Assembly (NCBI RefSeq): GCF_014200675.1
Contig: NZ_JACHCI010000013.1
Span: 1-64,000 of the forward strand
Direction of reading: 5' to 3'
Origin: Janthinobacterium saanense
Lineage (GTDB): Bacteria > Pseudomonadota > Gammaproteobacteria > Burkholderiales > Burkholderiaceae_D
Length of the DNA stretch: 64,000 bases
The notes beneath the pieces were generated by a model, which was not told the origin of the DNA, ran no database searches, and saw only the letters and a program-made list of their open reading frames with translations. Below, piece after piece: positions 30,258-50,878 of the stretch; within the stretch, counting starts at the first letter, position 1; each line of letters opens with the position of its first letter. Both the position numbers and the translations under genes were made by a program.

Positions 30258-30435
30258 TTTTTATTTGACTGTAACTGCTGCTGCCTTCCATGGCTGGCAG
30301 CAGTGTTTGCATCCCGCTCTTTCCCCCACCTGTAACACATGCCCATCCCCCGGGACTGCGTGCCTCAGCGCCCTTCAGCAAGCCTTCATTCGTCAAAAAC
30401 CGTGCTAACGAAATGTAATAAGACGCGTCAAAAAG

Positions 30436-30469
30436 ATTCGTTTTCGTCGACAAATGCTGTTGATATAGT
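30436..30469 (+). promoter_or_regulatory. Shared promoter element A of the organosulfur locus
   Basis: ATTCGTTT (30436-30443), exactly 20 bases, then TATAGT (30464-30469) within GATATAGTCA. The same layout occurs before the aldo/keto reductase and the first DszB-like gene. It lies 45 bases before the TonB receptor ATG. TATAGT is probably the -10 box; ATTCGTTT overlaps or precedes the -35 position and may be an activator contact. Confidence 0.6.
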
Positions 30470-33036: not shown

Positions 33037-34649
33037 TGGGCGGGGGAGGCATGTTGATATCGCGGCGTCACTTTATCGCTGCATTGGGGGCCGGTGCGCT
33101 GGTCCGGCCAGTGTGGGGCGCATCTGACCCTGCCGCGCCGGTGCGTGGCGGCACGCTGGTGGTCGGCGCCAATCCGGAGCCGACTACCCTGGCCAGCGCG
33201 ATCACCTCGGCCGGTCCCACGCAGCTGGTGTCGACCAAGATCTTCGACGGTTTGCTGACGTATGACCTGGCGTTGCAGCCGCAGCCGCAACTGGCCACCG
33301 CCTGGAAGGTCAGCCCCGATGGCCTGGCGATCGAGTTCACCTTGCGCGCCGGCGTGCGCTGGCATGACGGCCAGCCATTTACGTCGGCCGACGTGGCTTA
33401 CACCTTGATGAAAGTATGGAAGGTGTACCACAGCCGTGGCCGGGGCACGTTCGCCAACGTGCAGCGGGTAGAGACACCGACGCCTTTGCGTCTGGTGCTG
33501 CGGCTGTCCAAACCGGCGCCCTATATCCTCAGTGCGCTGGCGTCGGCCGAATCGCAAGTGCTGCCTGCCCATTTGTATCAGGGTGGGCCCGACGGCGCGG
33601 TGTTGAGCAACCCGGCCAATAACAAGCCGGTCGGTACCGGGCCGTTCCGTTTCGTGCGCTGGAACCGGGGCAGCGATATCGTCCTCGAGCGCAATCCGCA
33701 TTATTGGCAGCCAGGGCAGCCCTATCTGGACCAGCTGATTTTTCGTTTCCTGCCCGATGCGGGCGCCGCCGCTGCCGCGCTGGAGACGGGGGCGATCCAG
33801 CTGGCGACGATGATGGCCCCAGCCGACATCGCGCGCCTGCGCAAGAACAGCGCACTGGTAGTCGATACCCGGCCCACCGGTTTTTCATCGGTGATCAATT
33901 CCTTTGAATTCAATCTGGACCGGCCGGTGCTGCGCGATGCGCGCGTGCGCCAGGCAATCGCGCATGGCATAGACCGCGACTTCCTGATCAGGAATATCTG
34001 GTTCGGCGATGCCGTGGCGGCTACGTCACCGGTGCCATCCACATTGCCGGCCTTCTTTGGCAGCGGCTTGCCTGCCTATCCCTACGACTTGAAACGGGCC
34101 GCTGAACTGCTGGACCAGGCTGGCCTGAAGCCGGATGCGCGCGGTGTGCGTTTGACGCTGTCATGCGATCCGTATCCGAGTCCTGCACTGGTGCAGTCGG
34201 CGCAATACCTGCGCAGCAGCTTGCGCCGCATCGGCGTGCAATTGAATGTGCGCCTGCAGGATGCCGGCGAATTCGTCAACCGCATCTACACCCGCCGCGA
34301 TTTCGATACGGTGCTGTATGGCGCGGCGGCCGGGCCCGATCCAGCCATCGGCAGTCAGCGCTTTTACTCTTCGAAGAATTACCAGCCGGGCATCGCGTTT
34401 TCCAACGGCGCGCATTACCAGCATCCTCAGGTCGACAGCTTGCTGGAGGCGGCCCAGGTTGAACTCGATCCAGCCCGCCGCCGGGCCTTGTATCTGCAAT
34501 TCCAGCAAATCGTGCAGCGCGACGCCGTCACCTTGCCGCTGGTGGAATCGAGCATGCCGGTATTGCGCAGCCGCCGGCTGCGCAATGTGATGGTCACGGC
34601 CGATGGCCCGCTCGGTAATTTCGCCTCGGCCTGGCTGGACAAGAGTTAA
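33036..34649 (+). CDS. Dipeptide-type ABC substrate-binding protein, orphan paralog
   Basis: About 537 residues of the SBP_bac_5 (DppA/OppA) family: WKVSPDGLAIEFTLRAGVRWHDGQPFTSADVAYTL, VGTGPFRFVRWNRGSDIVLERNPHYW and RQAIAHGIDRDFL. The N-terminus contains SRRHFIAALGAGALV, a twin-arginine-like signal, so Tat export is possible. The ATG at 33036 overlaps the receptor stop; ATG 33051 is an alternative but its GGAGG is only one base away. No permease or ATPase follows. It is clearly related to the binding protein at 46610-48190 and may use that operon's transporter. Confidence 0.85.
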   Translation: MGGGGMLISRRHFIAALGAGALVRPVWGASDPAAPVRGGTLVVGANPEPTTLASAITSAGPTQLVSTKIFDGLLTYDLALQPQPQLATAWKVSPDGLAIEFTLRAGVRWHDGQPFTSADVAYTLMKVWKVYHSRGRGTFANVQRVETPTPLRLVLRLSKPAPYILSALASAESQVLPAHLYQGGPDGAVLSNPANNKPVGTGPFRFVRWNRGSDIVLERNPHYWQPGQPYLDQLIFRFLPDAGAAAAALETGAIQLATMMAPADIARLRKNSALVVDTRPTGFSSVINSFEFNLDRPVLRDARVRQAIAHGIDRDFLIRNIWFGDAVAATSPVPSTLPAFFGSGLPAYPYDLKRAAELLDQAGLKPDARGVRLTLSCDPYPSPALVQSAQYLRSSLRRIGVQLNVRLQDAGEFVNRIYTRRDFDTVLYGAAAGPDPAIGSQRFYSSKNYQPGIAFSNGAHYQHPQVDSLLEAAQVELDPARRRALYLQFQQIVQRDAVTLPLVESSMPVLRSRRLRNVMVTADGPLGNFASAWLDKS

Positions 34650-34708
34650 CCGCGACGTACAGATACCACTTGTTTATTGATGCATCACCTCACTACAAGG
34701 AAAGCACC

Positions 34709-35548
34709 ATGAGTCAGCTACAGTCCCGCTACGGATGGGATGCCACGTTTGAAAACGGCTTGTTTAACGCAGTGATCGCCGTGCAGGCGCCGCATTTGCC
34801 GGCGGCGCCGCCCGGTCCCGGCCAGACCCGCGAACCGCAGACGGCCGAAGAAATCGCCGAGGTGGTGGAATTCACGGCGCGGCTGGCGGCGCATGACACC
34901 TTCATCGTGCAAGCCGTGTCGAAGGCTATCGCCCACCTGGACATCGACACCCATTTCCAGCTGAAGCTGGCGCGCCAGGTCGGCGACGATGGCCACCACG
35001 CGGAACTGGCGCGCCACCGTTTGACGGCCCTGACCGGCAGCGACCAGCTACCCGTCATCGAAAGCTATGTCGGCGAGTTGTGGCAGGCGCTGGGCGATAT
35101 CCCTTATCGCGACGTGTACGGCTTCCTGGCGTTCCAGCTGCATTACGAGCTGCACATCCAGGGCCGCCTGAAGGCCGAGGGGCGCACCGCGAAAATCAAA
35201 TATGGACGCAAGAAGGATGAGGTGCTCGATTATGCGGTCGGTAACGAGGCCGATGACGAACTGCTACACCGTATCAATATCGTCGACTGGGTCAAGCAGC
35301 AACTGGCCGCGCTGCCAACGGCGCAGGAACGCCGGCAGTGGGTGGGCAGGGTGATCGCTGCCGACGACGACATGCAGCGCCGCCTCAACCCTTATCTGCG
35401 GCACCGCATCGCCAACGCGGGCCGCGCCTGGCAATCGGACTTGACGAACGTGACCGCCATTTACGATGGCTACCGCCGTCGCGTGCTCAGTCATTTGCTG
35501 GAAACGCCGGAGCAGGACTTGCCCGAGCTGACCAGCCTGGCGGCCTGA
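34709..35548 (+). CDS. Ferritin-like, possible diiron protein of the organosulfur locus
   Basis: About 279 residues, almost all helical. Candidate metal ligands are spaced as in four-helix ferritin-like oxidases: acidic/His residues Glu54, His62 and Asp63 in helix 1, Asp93-Asp94-x-His96-His97 in helix 2, Glu147 (HYELH) in helix 3, and Glu184-x2-His187 (DDELLHR) in helix 4. I do not recognise a named family. ATG 34709 has AAGGA upstream. It sits 3 bases before the LLM monooxygenase gene, so a role in substrate oxidation is plausible but inferred only from context and ligand spacing. Confidence 0.55.
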   Translation: MSQLQSRYGWDATFENGLFNAVIAVQAPHLPAAPPGPGQTREPQTAEEIAEVVEFTARLAAHDTFIVQAVSKAIAHLDIDTHFQLKLARQVGDDGHHAELARHRLTALTGSDQLPVIESYVGELWQALGDIPYRDVYGFLAFQLHYELHIQGRLKAEGRTAKIKYGRKKDEVLDYAVGNEADDELLHRINIVDWVKQQLAALPTAQERRQWVGRVIAADDDMQRRLNPYLRHRIANAGRAWQSDLTNVTAIYDGYRRRVLSHLLETPEQDLPELTSLAA

Positions 35549-35551
35549 ATT

Positions 35552-36679
35552 ATGAATCTGGACTTCACTGCGCCGGGCGATATCGCCGGCAGCCCCGTCG
35601 CCGAGGCTTTCCGCCAGCCGCTGATGCTGGGCGTATTCCTCAATCTGCAGGATATGCGCCGTTCAAGCTTGCCGAACACCTCGACCTGGACCTTCGATTA
35701 CAACGCCGACGTCGTCAAGACTGCCGATGCGCTGGGTTTTGAGCTGGCCTTCAGCCGCACCCAGTGGCTGCCCAAGGGCGGCTACGACGGCGAAGCCTCG
35801 CTCGACGCCTTTATCGCACTGGGCGCGATGGCGGCCATCACCCGCAAGATTTTGCTGATCTCCACCGTGCATGTGCTGTACGGGCCGTGGCATCCGCTGC
35901 ACTTCGCCAAGTTCGGCGCCACCCTGGACCATATCTCCAGGGGCCGCTGGGGCGTCAACATCGTGACCGGCCATCGCGCCGTCGAGCATGAAATGTTTGG
36001 CGCCGAGCGTATCGAACATGACCGCCGCTATGAACTGGCCGGTGAATTTTTCGACGTGGTGCAGCGGCTGTGGGCAGAGGCCGAAAATTACTCGTTTGAA
36101 GGGCAATCGTCGTGGCGCTTGAAAGACGCCTACGTGACGCCAAAACCGCAGTTTGGCCGGCCGCTGCTGGTGAACGCCACCGGTTCCGACGCCGGCATCG
36201 ATTTCGCCGCCCACTACTCCGACCTGGTGTTCATCACCAGCCCGGGCGGCGCCCATATCGATAGCGCCCTGGAGACCTTGCCGGCGCATATCGCCAAGGT
36301 GCAGCGCGCGGCAGAGGCGCGCGGCCGGCGCGTGCGCACCTTGATCAATCCCGTCATCGTCTGCCGCGAGACGGAGCGCGAGGCGCATGAATATGCGCGC
36401 CAGATCGTCGCTACCTCGGTACGCACCGGCAAGCACGATTACGACAGCGACGCCCATGCCTGGCGTGGCCGCAAGGACGCCAGCCACAAACAGGGTCTGG
36501 GCGTGGGCGGCAATATCGAAATCATCGGCAGCCCGGAGCAAGTGGTCGACCAGCTGCTTGCATTGAAAAAGACCGGCATCGATGGCGTGCAACTGAGCTT
36601 CAACGACTTTCAGCCCGAGCTGGAACACTTCGGTGCGCGCATTTTGCCGCTGCTCAAGCAAGCCGGCTTACGGCTCTAA
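35552..36679 (+). CDS. LLM-class FMN-dependent monooxygenase (SfnG/DszA-like), copy 1
   Basis: A 375-residue luciferase-like TIM-barrel enzyme. Diagnostic stretches are RQPLMLGVFLNLQ, TWTFDYNADVVKTADALGFE, STVHVLYGPWHPLHFAK, GRWGVNIVTGHRAVEHEMFG and LLVNATGSDAGIDFAAHYSDLVFI. This pattern is that of the dimethylsulfone monooxygenase SfnG and the related sulfone monooxygenase DszA, which use reduced FMN to cleave a C-S bond and yield a sulfinate. It follows the ferritin-like gene with 3 bases between. A clear paralog is at 41636-42820. An FMN reductase must be supplied from elsewhere. Confidence 0.85.
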   Translation: MNLDFTAPGDIAGSPVAEAFRQPLMLGVFLNLQDMRRSSLPNTSTWTFDYNADVVKTADALGFELAFSRTQWLPKGGYDGEASLDAFIALGAMAAITRKILLISTVHVLYGPWHPLHFAKFGATLDHISRGRWGVNIVTGHRAVEHEMFGAERIEHDRRYELAGEFFDVVQRLWAEAENYSFEGQSSWRLKDAYVTPKPQFGRPLLVNATGSDAGIDFAAHYSDLVFITSPGGAHIDSALETLPAHIAKVQRAAEARGRRVRTLINPVIVCRETEREAHEYARQIVATSVRTGKHDYDSDAHAWRGRKDASHKQGLGVGGNIEIIGSPEQVVDQLLALKKTGIDGVQLSFNDFQPELEHFGARILPLLKQAGLRL

Positions 36680-36717: not shown

Positions 36718-38022
36718 ATGAGCGAGTATCAAGGATTCAAAGTCATCGTCATCGGCGCCGGTCCGGGCGGCCTGTTGCTGGCGCAGGGCTTGAAAAAGCA
36801 TGGCGTCAACGTGGCCGTGTATGAGCGCGATGTGGCGCGTACCGATTATTTGCAGGGCTTCCGGCTGCAAATCCGCAGCCGCGGCATCGACGCGTTGCAA
36901 GCCTGTTTGCCGGACGCGCTATACCAGTCGTTTGCCTCGACCTATGCGGCCGCGCCGGGCGAATATGCGCTGCTGTCGGAACAGCTGCAGGAATTGCCGC
37001 GCCGTGATCCCGACCCCGAAGTGGAACATAGCGAGCGTGAAAAATCGGTCAGCCGCATTACCTTGCGCCAGGTGCTGCTGTCCGGCCTGGACGATGTGCT
37101 GCACTACCAGAAAACCTATGACCGTTATGAAGAACGCGATGACGGCAAGGTGGTCGCTTATTTTACCGACGGCAGCAGCGTGGTCGGCGATGTACTGGTG
37201 GGCGCCGATGGCGCCAATTCGCGGGTGCGGCGCCAGCTGGTGCCGCAGGCGCGCTGGGTCGACACGGGTGCGCGCCGGCTGGCCGGCAAGATCGAACTGA
37301 CGGACGCCGTCAAGCGCAGCGTGCCGGCACTGTTTTATCAAAAAACCGTGTCCGTGAAATCGGACAGCGGCTACAACCTGTTCTTTACCAGCCATGAATT
37401 TCGCCCCGGCCACGAAGCCGTCGGCGCGATAGGCGGCGAGGATGCGGCCGCCATCGGCGAGCACGGCGGGCTGTTGTTCGACAATGCCAAAAGCTACATC
37501 ATGTGGGCGCTCAGCGGCTTGCGCGAGCAATTGCCGCCCGATGATGAACTGTTCAGCTACGACGGTGGACAGCTGCGCAGCTTCATCAACCAGGTGGTGG
37601 AAACATGGCATCCGGCCTACCGCCAGTTGTTTGACCTGAGCGACACGTCGACCCTGGGCGTACTGCCGATCCGCACCTCGCTGCCGGTAGAACCCTGGCC
37701 GACGCGGACCGTGACCCTGCTCGGCGATGCAATTCACAGCATGACGTATTTCCGTGCGCTGGGCGCCAACACGGCGCTGGCCGACGCCGCGCTGTTTGTG
37801 CAGCAGATCCTGGCCCACCGCGATGGCGGCAAGGCGCTGCTGGCGGCACTGCACGACTATGAAGCGCAGATGCTGGAACAGGGTTTTGACGCGGTGCGCA
37901 AGTCGATTGCCGCCTTTGAGCAAGGCCATGCCGCGACGTCCCAACACGACTGGCCCGATGTGCGCAGCGCGCCGGGCCAGTCCCTATGGGTGCAGAGTCA
38001 TAAAACCCGCCAGGCCGCCTAA
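36718..38022 (+). CDS. FAD-dependent aromatic-type monooxygenase
   Basis: A 434-residue class A flavoprotein monooxygenase. GxGxxG is GAGPGG (13-18), the DG motif lies in DVLVGADGANSRVRR, and the GD motif is degenerate but recognisable as LLGDAIHSMTYFRALGANTALADA, where the usual Pro of the MxPxxGxGxN part is replaced. GGTAAAG precedes the ATG. It is the last gene of the TonB-to-monooxygenase transcript and overlaps the convergent JmjC gene by 4 bases. It may hydroxylate the carbon skeleton before or after desulfurisation; this is inferred from position. Confidence 0.82.
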   Translation: MSEYQGFKVIVIGAGPGGLLLAQGLKKHGVNVAVYERDVARTDYLQGFRLQIRSRGIDALQACLPDALYQSFASTYAAAPGEYALLSEQLQELPRRDPDPEVEHSEREKSVSRITLRQVLLSGLDDVLHYQKTYDRYEERDDGKVVAYFTDGSSVVGDVLVGADGANSRVRRQLVPQARWVDTGARRLAGKIELTDAVKRSVPALFYQKTVSVKSDSGYNLFFTSHEFRPGHEAVGAIGGEDAAAIGEHGGLLFDNAKSYIMWALSGLREQLPPDDELFSYDGGQLRSFINQVVETWHPAYRQLFDLSDTSTLGVLPIRTSLPVEPWPTRTVTLLGDAIHSMTYFRALGANTALADAALFVQQILAHRDGGKALLAALHDYEAQMLEQGFDAVRKSIAAFEQGHAATSQHDWPDVRSAPGQSLWVQSHKTRQAA

Positions 38023-39230
38023 TTCTCCAGCGCTGGATACCACAGCAGCCGCAGGAAGCCTGACCGTATCAGTAATTCCAGCAGTTGCTGCTTGTCGGCC
38101 TGGGCCAGGCTGGCAAAGCGCTGGTAAAAGTCGCCCGCGCTGAACGCCGCCTGGCTGCCGGCCAGCCAGGCTAGCGCCTCGGCCAGGTGGGCGGGCACTT
38201 CGGTGTCCAGGGTGGTGCGGGCGACCCAGTGCTGGTCCAGCGCGCTGACGCTCAGCTTCAGCCTTTGTGGCAGCGGCTGGTATGCCAGGCTGGCTTGCGG
38301 CACTTTCTGCAGGCGGCTGGCGGGGCTCAGTGGTAATCGCGGTTGCGCTGGCTGCAGCAGGTCGGCGCCATGGATCTGCTGCAGCAGTTTTGGCAGTTGT
38401 GCCAGCAGCCCATCGAGGCGGTCGGCCAATGCACCGCTCCCCGCTGGCTGATTTGCTTCGTACAGGGGACGGCGCCACTCGGCTTGCTGCAGCAGCAAGT
38501 CGTGCAGGCGCTTTAACAGCCGTTCCATCGCCGGCGGCGGGCGGATGCCTATGCTGACCGAGAAAGAATCCTGTTCGGCCACGCTGCGGTGCCAGGTGCC
38601 GCGTGGCAGGAACAGCACCGAGCCGGGTTCCATGGCGATGGACTCGAAAGTGGCGGTGTCCGGCGACGGAAAACCGGCGCCCGCTTGTGGATACAGTTCG
38701 TCGCCGGGCAGCATGCCGGGGCCGAATTGCTGACCGCTGGGGTAGGGCAGGCCAGCGACTTTGGCGACGTGGAATACCTTGCGCCCCTGCAACTGGATAG
38801 AGATGACGTCGTCGGCGTCGAAATGACAAGACACGCCATCGCCGGGCGGCGAGGCAAACGCTCCCAAGGTGCTGCAGGCGGCCGGCAAACCCAGTTCCCG
38901 TTCCAGCGCTTGCAGCCACTGCGCCAGGGCAGGCACGAAGCGGGCGATATCGGGCAGATACACGGTCAGCCCCAGCTGGAACAGGTGCAGCGCATGGGCC
39001 TCGACGTTGATCGTGCGGGCGTCGCGCGTACCGCGCCCGAAGGTGACCGGTCCCCGGTAAGCCCGCGCCAGCGCCTCCAGGCTGGCCAGTTCCGGCACGC
39101 GCAGGGCTGGCGGCAGCGCGGCTGGCGGCCGGTGCACCGCATAGTGGCGCTCCGGCCAGTGCGACAGGAAATCGCCGGCATGGTCTGCACCGAATAGTGC
39201 GGCCAGTACCGGTCTAGGCTGAAGGGACAT
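38019..39230 (-). CDS. JmjC/cupin-4 family putative 2-oxoglutarate/Fe(II) oxygenase
   Basis: A 403-residue protein. Metal ligands are visible as His136-x-Asp138 (CHFDADD) and His214 (LPRGTWHRS), in the double-stranded beta-helix order expected for cupin-4/RoxA-like oxygenases, with a helical C-terminal region (about 240-400). Characterised relatives hydroxylate ribosomal proteins, but peptide-maturation members exist as well. It lies 8 bases downstream of the first DszB-like gene and is likely co-transcribed from the same motif-bearing promoter. Its target is unknown; a connection with sulfur use is only by position. Confidence 0.75.
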   Translation of the reverse strand: MSLQPRPVLAALFGADHAGDFLSHWPERHYAVHRPPAALPPALRVPELASLEALARAYRGPVTFGRGTRDARTINVEAHALHLFQLGLTVYLPDIARFVPALAQWLQALERELGLPAACSTLGAFASPPGDGVSCHFDADDVISIQLQGRKVFHVAKVAGLPYPSGQQFGPGMLPGDELYPQAGAGFPSPDTATFESIAMEPGSVLFLPRGTWHRSVAEQDSFSVSIGIRPPPAMERLLKRLHDLLLQQAEWRRPLYEANQPAGSGALADRLDGLLAQLPKLLQQIHGADLLQPAQPRLPLSPASRLQKVPQASLAYQPLPQRLKLSVSALDQHWVARTTLDTEVPAHLAEALAWLAGSQAAFSAGDFYQRFASLAQADKQQLLELLIRSGFLRLLWYPALEN

Positions 39231-39238
39231 GCAGGGAC

Positions 39239-40294
39239 TCAGGCGGCGGCCAGCTCATTTGCCAGCTTGTGTGCCAGTTCCAGCGGTTCGCGCACGATCC
39301 AGCTCCTAAAGTCGATATCGCCAGCGAGAAAACCTTCATCGCGGAAGAAGTTTTTTTGCAGCTCCAGCGCATGGACGTAGTCGTCGCTGAGTTTGGGCTC
39401 GAAGCTGCGGTGCAGCTGCGGCCCGTAGCCGCGCCGCACGGCCTCCACGCTCGACGCCGTTTCGGCGGCAATCGCACTGACCACTTCGTCCGGATGCGCA
39501 TGCGCCCACTCGGCGGTGCGCAGCAAGACCGCCAGGTAGCGCGCCACCAGTTGCGGGTGTTCCAGCGCCAGCGTGCGGTCGACCGTGATCGGGCGCGGCG
39601 TGCCTGAATTGATGCGCACCAGCGCATCGTCATACTGGTTGAAATCGACGATGGCGCGCAAGCCGTGCCTGGCGATCAGGGTTGCGCTGACGGCGCCCTT
39701 GGCATAGATCGCGTCGACCTGGCCTGCGAGCAAGGCTTCGCTGGTGGCGTGGCGCCGCACGTCCGTGTGTTCGACCTGCTCGCGCAGGCCGCCGCTGTCA
39801 TCGGTGGCGACATCGATGAACTGCACTTCGTCACGGCGCAGGCCCGCCAGCGAGAGGGCCGTCAGCAAGCCACGCAAGTCTTGTGCGCGGCCCACATCGA
39901 TATGCTCGCTGCTGATCTGTTTGGGCAGCCCGAGGCGGTGCCCCTTCAGGTCGGCCAGGGTGTGGACAGGACTGTCGGGCCGCACCAGTATCACTTGCTC
40001 TTCATCGACCCAGGTGATACCCACCACGGCGGTGTTCTGGCCGTTGGCGCGGGCCCAGATTGGCGGCGCGTTGCCGCCTTCGCGGAACATGTTCGGATGG
40101 GTATGGTCGAAGTGGGACTGGCGCACCGCCGGGTCGGCCGAGGCGCGTATCGATGCCAGCGTGATGCCTTGCTGCGCAAAAGCGTTGTGCAGCCAGCCGA
40201 AGTGCTGGGCGATGCCGGAGGTGGTCGGCACCGGGCAGCGCGTGTACCATAACTCGGTCGGTGCGGTGCCTGGGGCCGGAGCAATGCTGGACAT
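39239..40294 (-). CDS. DszB-like sulfinate desulfinase homolog, copy 1
   Basis: About 351 residues with the periplasmic-binding-protein fold of SsuA-like proteins but no signal peptide from the chosen start. The N-terminal WYTRCPVPTTSGIA aligns with YSNCPVPNALLTA around the catalytic Cys27 of DszB. SHFDHTHPNMFREGGNAPP aligns with DszB around His60 and Arg70. Here these are Cys20, His61 and Arg71, with the same 10-residue His-Arg spacing. DszB hydrolyses an aryl sulfinate to sulfite. ATG 40294 has AGGGA upstream. Database labels as a sulfonate-binding protein are possible, but the conserved catalytic residues favour an enzyme. Confidence 0.75.
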   Translation of the reverse strand: MSSIAPAPGTAPTELWYTRCPVPTTSGIAQHFGWLHNAFAQQGITLASIRASADPAVRQSHFDHTHPNMFREGGNAPPIWARANGQNTAVVGITWVDEEQVILVRPDSPVHTLADLKGHRLGLPKQISSEHIDVGRAQDLRGLLTALSLAGLRRDEVQFIDVATDDSGGLREQVEHTDVRRHATSEALLAGQVDAIYAKGAVSATLIARHGLRAIVDFNQYDDALVRINSGTPRPITVDRTLALEHPQLVARYLAVLLRTAEWAHAHPDEVVSAIAAETASSVEAVRRGYGPQLHRSFEPKLSDDYVHALELQKNFFRDEGFLAGDIDFRSWIVREPLELAHKLANELAAA

Positions 40295-40337
40295 ATGGGG
40301 ATCCCTGGAAAGCGTGAATGTTGCGGCGACGAGACTC

Positions 40338-40371
40338 AATATAGTCAAGCTGTAGCGGGCCTGAAACGAAT
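40338..40371 (-). promoter_or_regulatory. Shared promoter element C (before DszB-like copy 1)
   Basis: On the minus strand ATTCGTTT (40371-40364), 20 bases, then TATATT (40343-40338), 43 bases before the start codon. The plus strand of the same -10 region reads ATATAGTCA, identical to elements A and B. Confidence 0.55.
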
Positions 40372-40480
40372 CATTCGGCATATGTTTATGACTCTTCGGA
40401 GCCGCGCAGTGACAGCTTCAACGACAGTTCAAGTGACAACTTAACACCGGCTCCAAGGTGTCATAAACAAGCGTGAAAAA

Positions 40481-41635: not shown

Positions 41636-42820
41636 TTACAGACGCAGGCCCGCCTGCTTCATCAGCGGCAGCACACGCTCGCCGAAAAACTCCAGGTCTG
41701 GCTTGAAGTCGAAGAAGCTGCACTGGATACCATCGATACCGGCTTCCTTGAGGGCGATGATCTGTGCGACGATCTGTTCCGGGCTGCCGATCAGACGGAT
41801 ATTGCCGCCGACGGCGCGCGCCGCATCCTTGCCATTGTCCTTGCGCTCACGCCAGGCGTGCGCGTCGCTATTAAAATTCTGCATGCTGGCGACCGGATCG
41901 GCATGGGCCACGATGGCATCGTGATAGGCCCATGCCTCCTGTTCCGTTTCACGGCACACGATCATCGGGTTGATCAGCGTGCGCAGCTTGCGGCCGACGG
42001 CAGCGCCAGCCGCCTTGACCTTGGCCGTATGGGCAGGCAGCGAGGCCAGCGCTTCTGCAATGGCGCCACCGCCCGGACTGGTGATGAACACCAGGTCGGA
42101 ATGGCGGGCGGCGAAATCGATGCCGGCATCCGAGCCGGTGGCGTTGACCAGCAGCGGCCGGCCGTATTGCGGCCGTGGCGTGACGAAGGCTTTATCGAGC
42201 TTCCACGATGACAGCGCCGGCGTGACCGAATAATTATCGTCGGCCGCCCACAGGTGTTGTGCGGCGTCGAGAAATTCGGCCGCCATCGCGTAGCGGTGAT
42301 CGTGTTCGATGCGCTGCCAGCCAAACATCTCGTGTTCGACGGCGCGGTGGCCGGTGACGACGTTGATGCCCCAGCGGCCTTTCGAGACGTGGTCCAGCGT
42401 GGCGCAGTATTTGGCGAAGTGCAGCGGGTGCCACGGCCCGTACAGCACGTGGGTAGTGGCCACCAGGATGATGCGCCTGGTGACTGCCGTCATGGCCGCC
42501 AGCGAGGTAAATGAGTCGATGGCCTCGCCGTTGAAAACGCCGCCGTAACCGCCCTTGGGCAGCCATTGCGACAGCGCGAATGCCAGGTCGAAGCCGAACT
42601 CCTCGGCCCGCTGCACCAGCGCCAGGTTGTAATCGAAGGTCCAGCTGGTGCTGCGCTCCAGGTGCGAAGCGCTCCAGCCGCCCGCCTGGATAGGCAGGAA
42701 CAGGCCCAGCATCATCGGCTGGCGCAATATCTGCGACACCGGGCTGTCCGGGAAGTCGGCTGGCGCGGCAAAGCTGCTGGCGGTGGCAGTGGAAGGCGTG
42801 GTGGCGGTGGCAAGCGGCAT
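41636..42820 (-). CDS. LLM-class FMN-dependent monooxygenase (SfnG/DszA-like), copy 2
   Basis: About 394 residues. It shares the core signatures of copy 1: RQPMMLGLFLPIQAGGWS, STSWTFDYNLALVQRAEEFGFD, TTHVLYGPWHPLHFAKY, GRWGINVVTGHRAVEHEMFG and LLVNATGSDAGIDFAARHSDLVFI. It has an extra Ala/Thr-rich N-terminal stretch of about 25 residues. ATG 42820 has a weak ribosome site (ACGGAA); GTG 42853 overlaps the ATPase stop as GTGA and is the alternative. It is the last gene of the desulfinase-importer operon, which links uptake and oxygenation. The divergence between the two copies suggests different substrates or steps. Confidence 0.85.
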   Translation of the reverse strand: MPLATATTPSTATASSFAAPADFPDSPVSQILRQPMMLGLFLPIQAGGWSASHLERSTSWTFDYNLALVQRAEEFGFDLAFALSQWLPKGGYGGVFNGEAIDSFTSLAAMTAVTRRIILVATTHVLYGPWHPLHFAKYCATLDHVSKGRWGINVVTGHRAVEHEMFGWQRIEHDHRYAMAAEFLDAAQHLWAADDNYSVTPALSSWKLDKAFVTPRPQYGRPLLVNATGSDAGIDFAARHSDLVFITSPGGGAIAEALASLPAHTAKVKAAGAAVGRKLRTLINPMIVCRETEQEAWAYHDAIVAHADPVASMQNFNSDAHAWRERKDNGKDAARAVGGNIRLIGSPEQIVAQIIALKEAGIDGIQCSFFDFKPDLEFFGERVLPLMKQAGLRL

Positions 42821-42849
42821 GAGGTTTTCCGTAAGATGGGGGAGTTGGA

Positions 42850-44601
42850 TCACAGTGCAAAGCGGTAAAACGAAAATGGCAGCGACTCTTCACGCACTGG
42901 TGGTGCCAGCTGCTGGCCTATGCTGCTGGCAAAGGCCGACGTGGGGACGGCGGCGATCAGGCTGCGTGTGTACGGGTTGACCGGGTTGCGCCAGATGCTG
43001 CGATGGTCGCCGCTTTCGACGATTTTCCCGGCATTCATCACCAGCACGCGGTCGGCGATGTAGCGCACCACCGACAAATCGTGCGAGATGAACAGATAGG
43101 ACAGGCCGAATTCCTGCTTCAGATCGACCAGCAGGTTCAGGATCTGCGCTTGCACCGAGACGTCCAGCGCCGACACCGGCTCGTCGCAGATCAATAGCGA
43201 CGGCTGCAGCACCAGCGCGCGGGCGATGCCGATGCGCTGGCGCTGGCCACCCGAAAATTCGTGCGCAAAGCGCCGCAGCGCCGTGGCCGGCAAGCCGACC
43301 CGGTCGATGATGCTGCGCGCGCGCCGTTCGCGTTCGGCCCGCTCGCTGACGCCATGCACGCGCAGCGCGCCCTCGAGGATATCGGCCACGCTGTGGCGCG
43401 GGTTCAGCGAGGCGTACGGGTCCTGGAATATCATTTGCGCCTGGCGCCGGAATGGTTGCAGCTGGCGCTGGCTGATGCGGGTGATGTCGCTGCCCTTGAA
43501 CAGGATCTGTCCTGCCGATGGATCGATCAGGCGCAAGATGGTTTTACCCAGAGTTGATTTGCCGCAGCCCGATTCGCCCACCAGGCCCACCGTTTCGCCG
43601 GCGGCGATATCGAAGGACACGCCATCGACAGCCCGTACCAGGCCTTGTTCCGATGCGTAGTGCGTTTCCAGTTTGAGCAGTTGCAGCAGCGGCTGACTAT
43701 GCGTCTGCTCCTGTGCCGTTTGCACCGGCGCGGGCTTGCCATGGCTGAGGACAAAGCTGCGCTGGCCACTGCGCGGGTCGATGCTGGCGCTCACCTCCAT
43801 CAGCCGCTGCTGGCGGTAATGCAGCTCGCGTTCCAAAGTCAGCGACGCGCCCAGCAAGCCGCGCGTGTAAGCGTGCTGCGGCTGCGTGAAGATGTGTTCG
43901 GTGCGGCCCTGTTCCAGTTTTTCGCCGCCATACATCACGGCCACCCGGTCGGCCCATTGGCCGACCACGCCCAGGTCGTGTGTGATCAGCAGCAGCGCCA
44001 TGTCAAACTCGCGCCTTAGCGTATCGAGCAGTTCCAGTATCTGGGACTGTATCGTCACGTCCAGCGCGGTGGTCGGTTCGTCGGCGATCAGCAGGCGTGG
44101 ACGGCAAGCCACGGCCATGGCGATCATCACGCGCTGGCGCTGGCCGCCCGATAACTGGTGCGGATAGTCGTCGATGCGGCGCCGGGGTTCGGGCAGCTTG
44201 ACCAGGTCCAGCAATTCGATTGCGCGCTGGCGCGCCGCAGCCGCCGACTGCGGCTGGTGCAGCCGCAGCACTTCGCTGATTTGCTGGCCGATGGTCAGCA
44301 CCGGATTGAGCGACGTCATCGGCTCCTGGAATATCATCGAGATCGCATTGCCGCGCAGTGCGCGCAGCGCTGGCTGCGGTAACTTCACCAGGTCCTGCCC
44401 CTCGAACAGCACCTGGCCCTGGATGCTGGCGCTGGCTGGCAGCAGCCGCATCAGCGCCAGCGCAGTGCTCGACTTGCCGCATCCCGATTCGCCGACCAGT
44501 GCCAGGGTTTCGCCGGCGGCGATGGAAAAATCGAGGCCGCGCACCGCGTGGTGGGCGCCGAAATGGACGTCGAGCTTGTTTACTTCCAGCAGCAGGCTCA
44601 T
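42850..44601 (-). CDS. ABC transporter ATPase, two fused nucleotide-binding domains (DppD-DppF/GsiA type)
   Basis: A 583-residue protein with two complete ATPase domains. The first has Walker [10 protein letters not shown] (37-45), signature LSGGQRQRV and Walker [13 protein letters not shown]. The second has [26 protein letters not shown] and [12 protein letters not shown]. The linkers carry the oligopeptide-family C-terminal extension (for example YTRGLLGA and NPYTRSLIA). One polypeptide therefore powers the two-permease importer encoded upstream. It overlaps the permease gene by 4 bases. The family imports peptides, glutathione, opines or nickel; here an organosulfur ligand is inferred. Confidence 0.92.
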
Positions 44602-45611
44602 TCTGACCGGCTCCGCAAACGTGGGTTCAGCGCGTCGTTCAAGCCATCGCCCACCAGGTTCAGGGATAGCACCGCGACGATGATCGCGCTGCCGGGAATT
44701 GCCGTCAAATACCAGGCGCTGCGCAGCATCTCGCGGCCGCTGCCTATCAGGCTGCCCCAGCTGACCCGGTTCGGGTCGCCCAGGCCGAGGAAGGACAGCG
44801 CGGACTCCATCAGGATGGCGGTAGCGATCATCACCGAGGTGGTGACGATGATGGGCGGCAGGGCGTTGGGCAGGATTTCGGCAAAGATGATGCGGCTGTC
44901 GCTGTAGCCCAGGCTGCGCGCGGCCAGCACGAAGTCGCGCTGTTTCAGCGAGCGGAATTCAGCCCGCACCAGCCGCGCCACCGTGGTCCACGAGGTGATG
45001 CCGATGGTCAGTGCGATGACGGCGATGGTGGGTGGCACGATAGAGATGATCACGATCATCAGCAGGAAGGAGGGCGTGGCCTGAAACAGTTCCATCAACC
45101 GCACCAGGGCACTATCGATGCGGCCACCGAAATAGCCGGCGCAGGCGCCGATCAGCGTGCCTATCGATAGCCCGATGGCGGCGGCCGCAACGCCGATCAG
45201 CAGCGAGGCGCGGGCGCCGTGCAGGATGCCGGCCAGCATATCGCGTCCCAGCGAGTCGGTGCCCAGCCAGAATTGGGCATCCTGCCCCGGCCACAGCAGC
45301 GGCTGCGCCACCATGTCGAGCGGGTCGCCCGGATACAGATAAGGCGCGGCCAGCGCCATCAGCACGATCAGCAGCAGCAAGATGGCGCCCGTCATAGCGG
45401 CCGGGTTGCGCAGGTAGCGGCGCAAGACTGGATAGCCCCGGCGCTGCACGGCAAGCGTATTTTCTGGCTCTTTATCCTGGGCTTGCACTGCCTGCGGCGC
45501 GGTTCTTGGCGGGGCGATATTAATACGCAGATTATGCGGATTCGGTGGCCTTGTCGGGCTCAGTGATGCTATTGGCTGCGCGGGCGGATTGATAATCGTC
45601 GTCGTTTCCAT
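44598..45611 (-). CDS. ABC importer permease, DppC type
   Basis: A 337-residue inner-membrane permease with about six helices. The DppC-type N-terminal segment follows a polar stretch (YLRNPAAMTGAILLLLIVLM), and GTDSLGRDMLAGILHGAR plus the EAA-loop region RSLGYSDSRIIFAEILPNALPP are diagnostic of the oligopeptide/nickel permease family. The first about 60 residues are an unusually long, Pro-rich cytoplasmic tail. It lies 4 bases from the DppB-type gene and overlaps the ATPase gene. Confidence 0.9.
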   Translation of the reverse strand: METTTIINPPAQPIASLSPTRPPNPHNLRINIAPPRTAPQAVQAQDKEPENTLAVQRRGYPVLRRYLRNPAAMTGAILLLLIVLMALAAPYLYPGDPLDMVAQPLLWPGQDAQFWLGTDSLGRDMLAGILHGARASLLIGVAAAAIGLSIGTLIGACAGYFGGRIDSALVRLMELFQATPSFLLMIVIISIVPPTIAVIALTIGITSWTTVARLVRAEFRSLKQRDFVLAARSLGYSDSRIIFAEILPNALPPIIVTTSVMIATAILMESALSFLGLGDPNRVSWGSLIGSGREMLRSAWYLTAIPGSAIIVAVLSLNLVGDGLNDALNPRLRSRSE

Positions 45612-45615
45612 CGTT

Positions 45616-46599
45616 TCAAGCCTTGATGCGGGGGTCCAGCCAGACGTGCAGCACGTCGACCAGCAGGTTGGCGAGGATCACCATGAACGATGACAGCAGC
45701 AGCACACCCAGCGACACGGCGTAGTCGCGTCCCTGCACCGCTTCGAGCGCCAGCCGGCCCAGGCCGGGCCAGCTGAAGACGGTTTCGATGACGACCGCGC
45801 CGCCCAGCAGATTGCCAAGGTGGATACCGGCCACCGTGGTGACGGGAATCAGCGCGTTGCGCAGCACATGGCGCAGCTGGATGATGAAGGGATGCAGGCC
45901 CTTGGCTTCTGCGGTGCGCACATAATCCTGCGTCTGCACTTCCAGCATCGCGGCCCGTGTCAGGCGCGCATAGATGGCGATGAAGACGCTCGACAGGGCC
46001 AGCGCCGGCAGCAGCGCGTGGCTGATGCGGTCGCGCAGCGCATCCCATCCGCTCAGGGCCGCGCCGATGGTGGTGCTGCCATCGCTGGGCAGCCAGCCCA
46101 GGTGCACCGAAAACAGCACCACCGCCATCAGGCCGATCCAGAAACCGGGCGTGGAATACAGCAGCAGCGACAGGAGCGAGAGCACGCGGTCCGGCCAGCG
46201 GCCGGCCCAGGTCGCCATCACCACGCCGCACAGTATGCCCAGCACCACCGAGATAGCCAGGGCGCTGGCCATCAGCAGCAAGGTGTTGGGCAAGCGGCTC
46301 CAGATCAGTTCCATCACCGGCATATTGAAGCGCGGTGAAAAACCGAGGCTGAAATGGGCGAGGTGATTCAGGTAGTTCAGCAACTGATGCCAGAGCGGCA
46401 GGTCGAGGCCGAAATGGCTACGCATCATCGCCATCGTTTCCGCCGTGGCCGAGCCGGATTCGCCGGCCAGCACGTCGGCGGCGTCGCCCGGCACCAGTTG
46501 CAGCAGCAGGAAGTTGAGGATGACGATACCGATCACGGTCGGCAGCGCGTACAGCAGCGCGCGCCGCAGCGCCTTGAACAAACGTGGCAGGCGGTTCAT
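45616..46599 (-). CDS. ABC importer permease, DppB type
   Basis: About 327 residues with six predicted helices. The DppB pattern is clear: FLLLQLVPGDAADVL near the first helix, GILCGVVMATWAG, YSTPGFWIGLMAVVLFSVHLGWLP, and the EAA loop RTAEAKGLHPFIIQLRHVLRNALIP. ATG 46599 is preferred over the frame-extended start at 46653, which lies inside the binding-protein gene. It pairs with the following DppC-type permease. Confidence 0.9.
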   Translation of the reverse strand: MNRLPRLFKALRRALLYALPTVIGIVILNFLLLQLVPGDAADVLAGESGSATAETMAMMRSHFGLDLPLWHQLLNYLNHLAHFSLGFSPRFNMPVMELIWSRLPNTLLLMASALAISVVLGILCGVVMATWAGRWPDRVLSLLSLLLYSTPGFWIGLMAVVLFSVHLGWLPSDGSTTIGAALSGWDALRDRISHALLPALALSSVFIAIYARLTRAAMLEVQTQDYVRTAEAKGLHPFIIQLRHVLRNALIPVTTVAGIHLGNLLGGAVVIETVFSWPGLGRLALEAVQGRDYAVSLGVLLLSSFMVILANLLVDVLHVWLDPRIKA

Positions 46600-46609
46600 A
46601 GGGATAAAC

Positions 46610-48190
46610 TCATGGCGATAAATACAGCGTGGCGAAATTGCCATCGAGGCCATTTGGCGTCGGCGTATGCTCGTGCACCCGCTTGTTAAACAGCGTTATT
46701 TGCTGCGGTCCGACCAGGTTGATGTCGGGCAGTTGCTGGCCGACGATCTGCTGGATTTGCGTGAACTGGGCCAGCCGTTTGGCCTGGTCCGTTTCCACCG
46801 CCGCCAGCGCGAACAAACGGTCCACTTCGGGATTGCTGAAGTGCGAGGCATTGGTGAACGGCACGCCCTGGCGGTAGCCTTGCGACCAGTACAGCCGCTG
46901 CACGCCGACGGTCGGATCGAACAGATTGCTCATGCCATTGACCACGAAATCGAACTGGCGGTCGGTGTAGACGCGCTTCAGATAGGCAGGCAAATCCTGG
47001 GCGCGGATGGTGATGGCGATGCCGATGCGCGCCAGGGCCGACTTGACGTAGCTGGCCGTGCGCGCCGGCGTATCGCCGATAGGCAGCGGGTCCAGCGTCA
47101 GCGTGAAGCGGTTGCCGTCGGCGCGACGCGGATAGCCGGCCTGGTCGAGCAGCGCATTGGCTTGCTTCAGGTCGAAGGAATAGGGCGACGGCGCTGCGCT
47201 GTAATACGGGCTGCCCGGCAGGATGGGGCTGTGGATCACGTTGGCATAGCCATAGAACACGGCGCTCTTGATGATTTCGCGCTGCAGCGCGTGGGCGATT
47301 GCCTGGCGTACCGGCAGCTTGGCCAGTATCGGCTGGTCGAGATTGAATTCCAGCCGCTGCGGGCCGGCCTCGAACTGGTAGCCCGAAGTTTCAAGCCCCA
47401 GTTTCGGATTGTTTTTCAGGCGCGCCAGGTCGCCCAGCGGCACCGGGGTGTCGCCGCCCAGATCGACGCTGCCATTTTCAAAGGCGATTGCGCGTCCGGC
47501 CGCATCGGGGATGAACTTGACGATGATCTTGTCCAGGTAGGGGCGCGGCTTGTCCCAGTAGTCCGGGTTGCGCACATACTCGATGTAGCTGCCGCGCACC
47601 CATTTGGAAAACTTGAACGGACCGGTGCCTATCGGTGCGGAGTTGTTGGGATTCGACAGCGCGTCGCCATGCTCGTAAATATGCTTGGGGATGATGGGCG
47701 ATTCCGATGCAGCAAAGGCCTTGATCAGGTAGGGCGCCGGCTGCGACAGCTCCAGCACCACCGTGTATGGGTCCGGTGTGCGCACTGCCGTCAGGTTGGC
47801 GAAGGTGCTTTTGCCGCGCGGGTGGATTTTTTTCAGCAGCTCCAGCGAAAACGCCACGTCGGCCGAGGTGAACGGTTTGCCGTCATGCCATTTGACGCCG
47901 TGGCGCAAGGTAAAGGTATAGCGTTTGCCATCCGGGCTGATATTCCATGCGGTGGCCAGTTGCGGAGTCGGATTGAATTTGAAATCGTAGGCCAGCAAGC
48001 CTTCGGTGACCTTGCTGCTCACTTTCAGCACCGGCACCGCGCTGGTAGCCAGGTTCACCAGCGATGGCGGTTCCGGCGTGACGACGAAGTTGAGCGTGCC
48101 GCCGGCCACGGGGGCGGCCGGTGCTGCACTACTCGCAAAGGCCAGGCAGAATAGCGCGGTGGCGCAGGAGCGGCGTAAATATCGAGGCAT
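46610..48190 (-). CDS. Dipeptide-type ABC substrate-binding protein of the desulfinase operon
   Basis: About 526 residues. The signal peptide ends around SSAAPAAPVAGG. SBP_bac_5 features are WNISPDGKRYTFTLRHGVKWHDGKPFTSADVAF, IGTGPFKFSKWVRGSYIEYVRNPDYW and VRQAIAHALQREI. The start at ATG 48190 is chosen because the longer frame is non-coding in character and runs into the desulfinase gene. It lies 35 bases after the fused regulator-desulfinase gene and 10 before the first permease, so it supplies the ligand for this importer. It is paralogous to the orphan at 33036. Confidence 0.9.
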   Translation of the reverse strand: MPRYLRRSCATALFCLAFASSAAPAAPVAGGTLNFVVTPEPPSLVNLATSAVPVLKVSSKVTEGLLAYDFKFNPTPQLATAWNISPDGKRYTFTLRHGVKWHDGKPFTSADVAFSLELLKKIHPRGKSTFANLTAVRTPDPYTVVLELSQPAPYLIKAFAASESPIIPKHIYEHGDALSNPNNSAPIGTGPFKFSKWVRGSYIEYVRNPDYWDKPRPYLDKIIVKFIPDAAGRAIAFENGSVDLGGDTPVPLGDLARLKNNPKLGLETSGYQFEAGPQRLEFNLDQPILAKLPVRQAIAHALQREIIKSAVFYGYANVIHSPILPGSPYYSAAPSPYSFDLKQANALLDQAGYPRRADGNRFTLTLDPLPIGDTPARTASYVKSALARIGIAITIRAQDLPAYLKRVYTDRQFDFVVNGMSNLFDPTVGVQRLYWSQGYRQGVPFTNASHFSNPEVDRLFALAAVETDQAKRLAQFTQIQQIVGQQLPDINLVGPQQITLFNKRVHEHTPTPNGLDGNFATLYLSP

Positions 48191-48225: not shown

Positions 48226-50319
48226 TCAGGCTGCCAGCTCGGCGCTGATGTTGTCGCGGCGGGTCTCGAGCAGTTGCAGCGCTTGCCGCAGCGGCTGCGG
48301 ATCGATCCATTGTTCGATGTCGAAGTCGGTGGGCAGGTAGCCGCTGCCATGCAGGAATTGCTTGAAGTTGTCGAGCGCCGCCACCGAGCCTGGCGCCAGG
48401 TCGATATGCAGATTGTGGTGCAGCCTTGGGCCATACGCATGGCGCACCCACAGCTCGGGGCTTTTGGTTTCGCGGGCGATATAGGCGGTCGTTTCGGTGG
48501 GGTGCGCTTCTGCCCAGCGGCCGGCGGCGATGGTGCGCGCCAGCACCCGGGCCACCAGGTCAGGGCGCGCATCGAGCAGTGCCTGATCGACTGTCAGCGG
48601 GCGCGGTGCGCCGTTATTTGCATGCAGCAGACGATTGCCTTGCTGGCTGATGTCGACGATCACATCGGCCTGCGCCAGGTTGGCGGCGGCCAGTCCGGTC
48701 GCGCCCTTGGCGAACACCACATCGACCTCGCCGCTGATCAGCGCATGCACTTCCCGGCTGAATTCTTGCTGGCCATGCGTGCGCAGCAGGCGCGCAAAAC
48801 CCTGTTCGTCGACCGGCCTGGCATCGGCCAGTCCCAGCGGCGCATAGGGCAGGTCGACCAATTTCACGTCGTCGAGTGTCAGGCCGGCCACGTCAAGCAG
48901 CGTGCTGAAGCCGCGCAGCGCGGTGGCGCGGTGGAAGTCTACCACCCCGGAAACCAGGTTTTTGGGCAGACCGAAGCGTTTACCGCGCAGTTGTTCCACG
49001 CTGGCGATGCCGCTGCCGCGCAAGGCCAGCAGGCCCTGGAATTCATCGACCCAGGTCAGGCCGATCACACGCGTGGCCGCGCCGGAGGAACGCGCCCACA
49101 GCGCCGGGATATTGCCGCCCTGGCGGAACGAGTGCGGCTGCGAGTGGGTAAAGTGCGAGCGCCGTATGGCCGGGTCGTCCGCATCTTGCAAGGCGCGCAT
49201 TTGCAGGCCGTCAGCGGCGAATTCCTGCGCCAGCCAGCCTTGCTGGATAGCGATGCCGAACGGCGTGGGCGCCGGGCAGCGGGTGTACCAGAGCGTGTCG
49301 ATGGTGGTGGACATGGTGGGTGCTCCTCTGTGTATGGTCGGTGGTTGGACGATGCGGTGGATGTTTGCAGGGGCTGTGGCGTCACTGGCAAGCGTGGTAT
49401 CGCGATGCAGTTCCAGGTCGATGGCCTGGCGTGTCAGCTGGGGCGCGAAATGGCGGATGAATTCATAGGTGTAGCTGCGCAGGTAGGCGCCGCGCCGCAC
49501 CGCCAGCCAGGTGGTGCTGGCGGCGAACAAATGGCCCGCGTCCAGCGCCCGCAAGCCTGCGTCGTGTTCGGCGTCGAACGCCACCGATGCCAGCACGCCG
49601 ACCCCAAGGCCGAGCCGTACATAGTCTTTGATGACGTCGGAATCCATCGCCGTCAGCACCACATCGGGGCTCAGGCCGGTGGTGGCGAACGCCTGGTCGA
49701 TATGGCGCCGGCCGGTGAAGCCATGGTCATAGGTTAGCAGCGGGAATTGCACCAGAGCGCGCAAGGTCAGCGGACCCAGTTCCAGCAAGGGGTGGCCGTC
49801 TGGCACCAGCACCAGATGACTCCAGCGGTAGCAGGGAAAGGCGGCCAGTTCCGGGTAGGCCGCCAGGCCTTCGGTGGCGATGCCGATGTCTGCCTTGCCT
49901 GCGATGACAGACCTGGCGATGTCTTCCGGCGTGTTTTGCTGTAGCGCGACGCGCACGTCGGGAAACGCGCCGCGAAACCCCAGCATCGCTTGCGGCAGCG
50001 CGTAGCGGGCCTGGGTATGGGTGGTGGAAATACCCAGTACGCCGCTGGCGAGCGCCGTATATTCGACGCCGGCGCCTTGCAGCTTGCCGGCCTCGATCAG
50101 CAGGCGTTCCACGATGGGCATGATGGCCCGGCCCGAGTCGCTCAGGCCAGTAATGCGTTTGCCGCTGCGTTCAAAGATGGCGAACCCCATCGCGTCTTCC
50201 ATATCGCGCACATGACGGCTGATGCCTGGCTGCGTCATGCCCATGGCGCTGGCCATCTGGCTCAGATTGAAGCTGTGGCGTGGCAGTTCGAGGATAGTCC
50301 GTAATTGTTGAAAATTCAT
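48226..50319 (-). CDS. CysB/Cbl-type LysR regulator fused to a DszB-like desulfinase, copy 2
   Basis: One uninterrupted reading frame of about 697 residues. Residues 1-310 are a complete LysR-type regulator of the CysB/Cbl/SsuR group: HTH around MGMTQPGISRHVRDMED, then ISTTHTQARYALPQAM, LTYDHGFTGRRHIDQAF and DSDVIKDYVRLGLGVGVLA. After a linker of about 30 residues comes a full DszB-like domain (LWYTRCPAPTPFGIA and RSHFTHSQPHSFRQGGNIP), with Cys13, His54 and Arg64 counted from the internal ATG at 49314. That internal ATG has AGGAG 8 bases upstream, so a free desulfinase may also be made. It heads the importer-LLM operon. A stop codon lost between two formerly separate genes is the alternative. 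Confidence 0.8.
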   Translation of the reverse strand: MNFQQLRTILELPRHSFNLSQMASAMGMTQPGISRHVRDMEDAMGFAIFERSGKRITGLSDSGRAIMPIVERLLIEAGKLQGAGVEYTALASGVLGISTTHTQARYALPQAMLGFRGAFPDVRVALQQNTPEDIARSVIAGKADIGIATEGLAAYPELAAFPCYRWSHLVLVPDGHPLLELGPLTLRALVQFPLLTYDHGFTGRRHIDQAFATTGLSPDVVLTAMDSDVIKDYVRLGLGVGVLASVAFDAEHDAGLRALDAGHLFAASTTWLAVRRGAYLRSYTYEFIRHFAPQLTRQAIDLELHRDTTLASDATAPANIHRIVQPPTIHRGAPTMSTTIDTLWYTRCPAPTPFGIAIQQGWLAQEFAADGLQMRALQDADDPAIRRSHFTHSQPHSFRQGGNIPALWARSSGAATRVIGLTWVDEFQGLLALRGSGIASVEQLRGKRFGLPKNLVSGVVDFHRATALRGFSTLLDVAGLTLDDVKLVDLPYAPLGLADARPVDEQGFARLLRTHGQQEFSREVHALISGEVDVVFAKGATGLAAANLAQADVIVDISQQGNRLLHANNGAPRPLTVDQALLDARPDLVARVLARTIAAGRWAEAHPTETTAYIARETKSPELWVRHAYGPRLHHNLHIDLAPGSVAALDNFKQFLHGSGYLPTDFDIEQWIDPQPLRQALQLLETRRDNISAELAA
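49312..49327 (-). promoter_or_regulatory. Internal ribosome site and start codon for a free DszB-like protein
   Basis: On the minus strand AGGAG (49327-49323), 8 bases, then ATG (49314-49312). This is a better ribosome site than that of the fused gene's own start, so internal initiation is likely. Confidence 0.65.
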
Positions 50320-50331
50320 GGAAGTTCTCAT

Positions 50332-50878
50332 ATCGCACGCCCGTCGGGAGCACGGCTAGCCTCTATCAAATGCGGCACAAAATGCGTCCCTGCTGTGATA
50401 CCGGCTGCGTCGCAAGGCTTTCAACATACAAGCCTAAAGCGGGGTGCAACAGATGAGAACGAAGCTTTTTGGCGTCGCATATCTGTTTTTGTCATGGTTT
50501 GACAGCCGTATTGCTGCGGCGCCTGAAACACATATGCATATGCGCAAACGCGCTGTTTTTTTGAGAAGAAACAGGGTATTCAAGGCGCAACAGATGCGTT
50601 TCTTGATTCAATTGGCAAGCATCTCGCCTGGCTTCTTTTTACAAAGTGGATGAAGATAGTTGCGCGATGCATGCGGGCTATGAAGAAAAGATGATGTTGT
50701 TTTTAGGGCCGGCTTAGGCCCTCTGGTTTTATGTCCCGGAAATTGCAGTGCTATGTAGTCATTATTATAAATAATATAATATTGACCGATTTGAGCCACA
50801 GGCAGTGACAGCTTGGCGATATACTCACACTTGCGTGGTGAAACTGGCCTACTTTATTTAAATCTTGAAAGAATCTCG
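50332..50878. other. 547-base intergenic region upstream of the fused regulator gene
   Basis: No convincing gene. On the minus strand TTGAAA, 18 bases, TATCAC (around 50422-50393) is a weak promoter candidate for the regulator-desulfinase operon. The words GCAACAGATG occur twice (near 50447 and 50588). AT-rich DNA at 50760-50785 (ATTATTATAAATAATATAAT) is a probable promoter zone for the plus-strand gene at 50879. The locus motif ATTCGTTT-N20-TATAGT was not found here. Confidence 0.4.

Follow-up and report, generated by a model that had tools for sequence, protein, structure and literature searches.

Here we describe a natural protein fusion in which a LysR regulator of the CysB group is joined, in one open frame on the minus strand, to a DszB-like protein predicted to be a desulfinase. 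We read it, with a probability of about 70%, as a recent gene fusion confined to one lineage, which arose when the spacer between two neighbouring operon genes was deleted and which left the regulator carrying the enzyme as a tolerated passenger. The fusion is probably accidental rather than a new kind of sensor. Throughout, the window is the whole stretch of 64,000 nucleotides that was analysed, and G015 is a relative of the same genus in which the two genes are separate.

Results

The fused frame

The fused frame starts at the ATG at 50319, ends at the stop at 48226-48228 and encodes 697 residues on the minus strand without an interruption. The original prediction had described an uninterrupted LysR regulator in frame with an uninterrupted desulfinase homolog, and both halves are indeed complete; its placement of the fusion at 48226-50319 also stands, to which we add the strand that it omitted, the minus strand. 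An alternative ATG at 50331, upstream of the fusion start, would give 701 residues; it is absent in G015, whereas the ATG at 50319 is kept there. Pfam finds three domains in the fused protein, HTH_1, LysR_substrate and NMT1. Residues 1-305 (49405..50319, minus strand) are the CysB-group LysR regulator with its helix-turn-helix and effector domains, as delimited by Pfam, the NCBIfam model NF009327 and the alignment to CysB; residues 306-335 (49315..49404, minus strand) form a linker of 30 residues, delimited by the alignment to G015, AlphaFold2 and GC3; and residues 336-697 (48226..49314, minus strand, stop included) are the DszB-like half, 362 codons counted from an internal ATG. This internal ATG, at 49314-49312, is preceded at 8 bases by AGGAG (49323..49327, minus strand), which resembles a ribosome binding site, just as had been claimed for the enzyme part. 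With its own ribosome binding site and ATG, the enzyme half could be made free as well as fused, as was also proposed, and the forms of 76 and 39 kDa that were expected agree with the computed masses: the whole fusion comes to 75.9 kDa, and translation from the internal ATG would give 39.5 kDa.

The regulator half

The best NCBIfam model for the regulator half, among the 25 models shown of the 34 matched, is NF009327 (CysB family), with 396.8 bits (E 6.6e-119), slightly below its curated cut-off of 402. Both Pfam domains score above their cut-offs (HTH_1 37 bits against 26.6, LysR_substrate 139 against 28). The label "CysB/Cbl-type regulator" that it was first given holds as far as membership of the group goes, and fails for CysB and Cbl themselves, whose equivalog cut-offs are missed (339 bits against 436 and 330.8 against 491, respectively). 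Judged by its sequence, the regulator half is a paralogue within the CysB/Cbl group and neither CysB nor Cbl sensu stricto. At least two further CysB-group regulators are found in the same genome, at C11 (58% identity) and at C18 (47% identity).

Residues 1-303 align without a gap to CysB of known structure, and the positions named in an excerpt of a CysB study (PMC11329422) can be compared one by one. Seven of nine effector-domain positions (149, 160, 164, 166, 196, 197, 227, 244 and 247) are identical to CysB; the exceptions, A160 and S227, recur in G015. In the DNA-binding domain, five of the eight positions named there (11, 20, 22, 27, 33, 34, 41 and 44) are identical, namely E11, S20, I33, S34 and E41, while M22, G27 and M44 differ from CysB and again are the same in G015. 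The activating region of CysB, Y27 T28 S29, is not kept: the window and G015 both have G27 M28 T29 (residues 27-29, at 50233-50241 on the minus strand), and three paralogues that we checked carry F27 T28 S29. According to the same source, Y27G by itself abolishes activation and autoregulation by CysB (PMC11329422). Since the glycine is common to the window and to the two-gene G015, this change predates the fusion. It suggests that the regulator may bind or contact the polymerase differently, or that it may act as a repressor only. A CysB-group regulator would be expected to bind N-acetylserine or a related inducer.

The excerpt also bears on the place of the join. Repression is lost when CysB is cut short by 19-30 residues at its C-terminus, and the residues that pack at the A-C interface include Arg307, Ser308 and Glu310 (PMC11329422). 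The linker begins at residue 306, right at this interface and truncation region, so the join may not be harmless. An addition at the C-terminus through a flexible linker is plausible, and its neutrality is not certain.

The enzyme half

The enzyme half aligns with residues 19-361 of the DszB chain (match to PDB 2de2, E 9.8e-14), and in a Foldseek search with the structural model the top three matches are all DszB (E 2.2e-21 to 1.2e-19), at an identity of 24% in the structural alignment. Cys348, His389, Arg399 and Gly402 of the fusion align with the active-site positions of DszB, which we take to be Cys27, His60, Arg70 and Gly73 (a C27S mutant appears in a PDB title). When 19 DszB-like proteins were aligned, the arginine column was invariant and the cysteine, histidine and glycine columns were almost so. 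By these comparisons the enzyme half is a complete DszB-like protein and a predicted desulfinase. AlphaFold2 modelled the enzyme domain mostly with confidence, apart from a loop at residues 495-517 (below 50); residues 300-337, which hold the linker, are below 50 too, and the regulator half is mostly below 50 and poorly modelled, a part on which the model says little; the input alignment had few rows, and these were much alike.

The junction compared with G015

Among the 40 genomes of the genus that were searched, its own included, G015 is the only other one with an orthologous gene pair. There the regulator stops at a TAA after 343 codons, and 86 bases later the enzyme ATG follows in another frame. 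The start codons of regulator and enzyme lie 1118 bases apart in G015; in the window this distance is 1005. The net shortening of 113 is not a multiple of three, and from it we infer the exact deletion event. In one alignment the G015 stop falls within an unbroken gap of about 94 columns, and the regulator tail has two smaller gaps, of 8 and 12; with a second aligner the long gap comes out as two, of 26 and 68, and it is the one of 68 that lies across the stop. The AGGAG and its 8-base spacing to the enzyme ATG are common to both genomes. Because the long gap covers the G015 stop, the linker is made of what is left of the regulator tail followed by sequence that in G015 is the 5′ leader and ribosome binding site of the enzyme gene, here read as protein. 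Its GC3 is 0.60, compared with 0.78 and 0.80 in the two halves.

The original prediction had named a lost stop codon as the simpler explanation, and here the G015 stop is gone in the window together with most of the spacer. It had also looked to conservation of the linker in related strains; G015 instead has a stop and a different frame at this place, which comes near to what the prediction itself said would make the fusion two separate genes.

How easily such a junction arises can be estimated from deletions made in silico in G015, which began from codon 300 on, touched the stop and spared the AGGAG and everything after it. An open in-frame fusion resulted from 3320 of the 10032 combinations of start and end (33%; 3 were empty or inverted). 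With about one in three simulated deletions leaving an open fusion, the open junction is by itself no evidence of selection. A script that looked in G015, from codon 295 to the enzyme ATG, for direct repeats with copies more than 60 bases apart found none longer than 8 bases.

How often the fusion and the gene pair occur

When 61 relatives were searched with the 697-residue query, a match over both halves was seen, among the matches listed, in the fusion's own genome only. The same query returned no second fusion from 40 genus, 392 family, 369 class and 399 order genomes, sets that overlap and of which the larger groups were sampled rather than covered whole, at cut-offs of E 1e-120 to 1e-130 (the search of the 61 relatives excepted). 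Matches to single halves, among those listed for the 61 relatives, scored about 300-430 bits at 45-60% identity, so a similarly diverged fusion should have passed these cut-offs. Of the 392 family genomes, 32 contain a match to the enzyme half alone at E 1e-40 or better.

The pairing of the two genes is also rare. A CysB-type regulator adjoins the DszB-like match in 5 of 35 loci, checked mostly with 1.5 kb flanks, and all five come from G000 and G015. A contig scan with a single-protein query returned no relative, and an alignment-based scan returned at least 577, from which 78 named loci were kept; in none of these 78 (several stop at contig ends, with flanks below 4 kb) did the DNA around the DszB-like gene contain a CysB-type LysR match with an E-value of 1e-15 or lower. 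Among the loci and genomes examined, then, regulator and enzyme are adjacent in two genomes and fused in one. Titles and abstract openings of open-licence PMC papers were searched as well, and no LysR-desulfinase fusion was found among the matches listed.

Two sets of apparent fusions were set aside. The frame of 625 codons at L012 in G031 has a stop after about 310 residues that the alignment had crossed, and for the DszB-like frames of 526-709 residues that are second copies in G020, G029, G033 and other genomes, the matches listed cover the enzyme half only.

The operon, its neighbours and candidate operators

The fused gene heads a run of genes on the minus strand. The next gene, 35 bases past the enzyme stop, encodes a family 5 solute-binding protein (46610..48190; Pfam SBP_bac_5, 305.7 bits), and there follow two Dpp/Opp-type permeases (45616..46653 and 44598..45611), a two-domain Dpp/Opp-type ATPase (42850..44601) and, at the end of the run, a luciferase-like flavin monooxygenase (41636..42853; Pfam Bac_luciferase, 165.6 bits). 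The order is the same in G015: regulator, DszB-like enzyme, family 5 solute-binding protein, two permeases, ATPase and luciferase-like monooxygenase.

Upstream of the regulator start, in the best-conserved block, lies a candidate operator, AAAAAGCTTCGTTCT (50456..50470, minus strand). A similar 15-mer, AAAAAGATTCGTTTT (30430..30444, plus strand), is a candidate second operator about 70 bases before a TonB-receptor gene at 30514. Each site falls inside a block that is conserved in G015, strongly so at the second. With three mismatches allowed, the first motif has 3 matches in the window, one of them within the enzyme gene, against 0.67 expected, a number reached in 2 of 100 shuffles. A joint pattern, AAAAAGNTTCGTTNT, was derived from both window sites, so that its two exact matches in the genome are not independent, and genome-wide with one mismatch it has 4 matches against 13 for the same pattern reversed. 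As it matches less often than its reversed control, the case for the sites rests on conservation in G015 and not on rarity. At 106 other loci a stricter form of the motif is absent, as it is in the control, and a looser form matches once, against 0 in the control; the motif is thus not general to these clusters. We propose that the two sites may mark one regulon of uptake and desulfurisation genes, the binder being the fused regulator or another protein of the CysB group.

Elsewhere in the window (33033-36679, plus strand, and 38019-40381, minus strand) lies a module with a second family 5 solute-binding protein, a second luciferase-like monooxygenase, a JmjC-domain protein, a second DszB-like gene and an open reading frame at 34670-35548 without a Pfam match. 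None of it was seen among the open reading frames of the corresponding G015 stretch, and it was therefore either gained in the lineage of the window or lost in G015. In a further set of loci (L066-L086, from Paraburkholderia, Caballeronia, Burkholderia and relatives), a luciferase-like monooxygenase, a DszB-like gene and a family 5 solute-binding protein stand together in 18 of 21 cases, at times with Dpp-type permeases too; the enzyme identity is 57-66%, and the group is a putative organosulfur module.

Divergence and selection

Between the window and G015, regulator residues 1-305 have a pairwise dN/dS of 0.215 and the enzyme one of 0.134, and four other operon genes (the monooxygenase left out) lie at 0.117-0.216, values that average the entire divergence rather than the time since the fusion and so cannot show selection after it. 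Raw counts of amino-acid changes in the regulator, polarised with eight outgroups, give 15-19 on the window branch and 8-9 on the G015 branch, with 15-18 unpolarised. For the enzyme, six outgroups give 4-7 changes in the window and 5-9 in G015, with no consistent bias. The excess on the window branch of the regulator, found with all eight outgroups, is compatible with mild relaxation.

Discussion

The ancestor of this fusion was presumably an organosulfur operon that opened with a CysB-group regulator, which had its own stop, and continued with a separate DszB-like gene, as in G015. Some 100 bases (net 113) would then have been deleted, among them the regulator stop and most of the spacer, an event that left the frame open by chance and spared the ribosome binding site and ATG of the enzyme. 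The products today would be a 76-kDa fusion and a free 39-kDa enzyme from the internal start. The regulator half may still respond to the inducer of its group and recognise its operator, and the enzyme would be tolerated as a passenger at the C-terminus. Most likely the cell makes both forms and the fusion acts as an ordinary regulator that carries a passenger. We take the direction to be fusion rather than fission by parsimony, because in the other examined loci each half is a gene of its own; with a single two-gene ortholog in the searched genomes, it is on parsimony that the direction rests.

A selected sensor is very unlikely. In the manner of a trigger enzyme, the fusion would place the desulfinase beside the effector domain, and its binding of a sulfinate or its release of sulfite would alter DNA binding by the regulator. 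Both halves are uninterrupted, pairwise dN/dS (an average over the whole divergence) is low, the active-site residues and seven of the nine effector-domain positions named in the CysB excerpt are kept, and regulator and enzyme belong to one gene run, all of which would suit a sensor. Yet the fusion is found in one genome only among those searched, a good part of the linker corresponds to leader in G015, about a third of such deletions leave an open frame anyway, and the free enzyme probably persists. The original prediction of a regulator that senses the flux through its own enzyme fares poorly for much the same reasons: G015 has two genes, no second genome among those searched has the fusion, and a good part of the linker is non-coding leader in G015. 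Its fullest version, in which the desulfinase is held at the effector domain and sulfite or sulfinate sets both its own operon and that of the TonB receptor, we consider slightly less probable still.

The strain might instead have two genes in truth and have lost a stretch of the spacer in the draft assembly. The genome is a draft of 48 contigs and its relative G015 has two genes, but the two sequences are set apart at the junction by one long gap, further shorter gaps and numerous substitutions, which is no single-base error, and the longest distant direct repeat in the G015 region, 8 bases, is too short for an assembly collapse; an error of this kind is very unlikely. Less far-fetched, and still unlikely, is early decay, in which the fusion damages the regulator, now on its way to loss, while another CysB-group protein drives the operon. 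The additional CysB-group regulators, at C11 and C18, could stand in, the window branch carries more regulator changes than that of G015, and the join sits at interface residues where, by the CysB excerpt, truncation harms (PMC11329422). Against decay, the regulator has neither a stop nor a frame break, and its dN/dS, although averaged over the entire divergence, falls inside the range of the operon.

A passenger fusion by spacer deletion would be a clean snapshot of operon neighbours becoming one protein, in which the two-gene relative, the spacer deletion, the translated leader and the internal start can all be seen, and the internal start should keep the enzyme available alone. Its significance would be greater if the fusion regulates unlike the two-gene form, and the window and G015 lend themselves directly to such a comparison.

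Among known systems, the dsz operon of IGTS8 holds DszA, DszB and DszC, according to an excerpt of PMC8557817. DszB (2'-hydroxybiphenyl-2-sulfinate desulfinase, PDB 2de2 and 2de3) is the best fold match of our enzyme, which has cysteine, histidine, arginine and glycine at the active-site positions, whereas the structural identity is 24% and the window enzyme is linked to a Dpp/Opp-type transporter and a luciferase-like monooxygenase. Acd, a different case, belongs to the acyl-CoA dehydrogenase family and not to that of DszB. In Advenella mimigardefordensis, as far as the excerpted text tells, one cluster holds a LysR gene and, downstream of it and separated by a single other gene, a desulfinase gene, and Acd acts on 3-sulfinopropionyl-CoA (PMC5373536); the clustering of LysR and desulfinase is alike, and the separate proteins and the substrate of Acd set that system apart. 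The regulator half resembles the CysB/Cbl group in its helix-turn-helix and effector domains, in its ungapped alignment to CysB over residues 1-303 and in seven of the nine effector positions named in the excerpt, and departs from CysB at residues 27-29, where it has Gly-Met-Thr, as does G015, in place of Tyr-Thr-Ser. Unlike CysB and Cbl, it misses their equivalog cut-offs and its C-terminus continues into an enzyme. Regulators fused to enzymes are widespread and functionally tested in the BirA, PutA, NadR and MocR types, and the window fusion, known from one genome, shares with them the joining of DNA-binding and catalytic parts on one chain.
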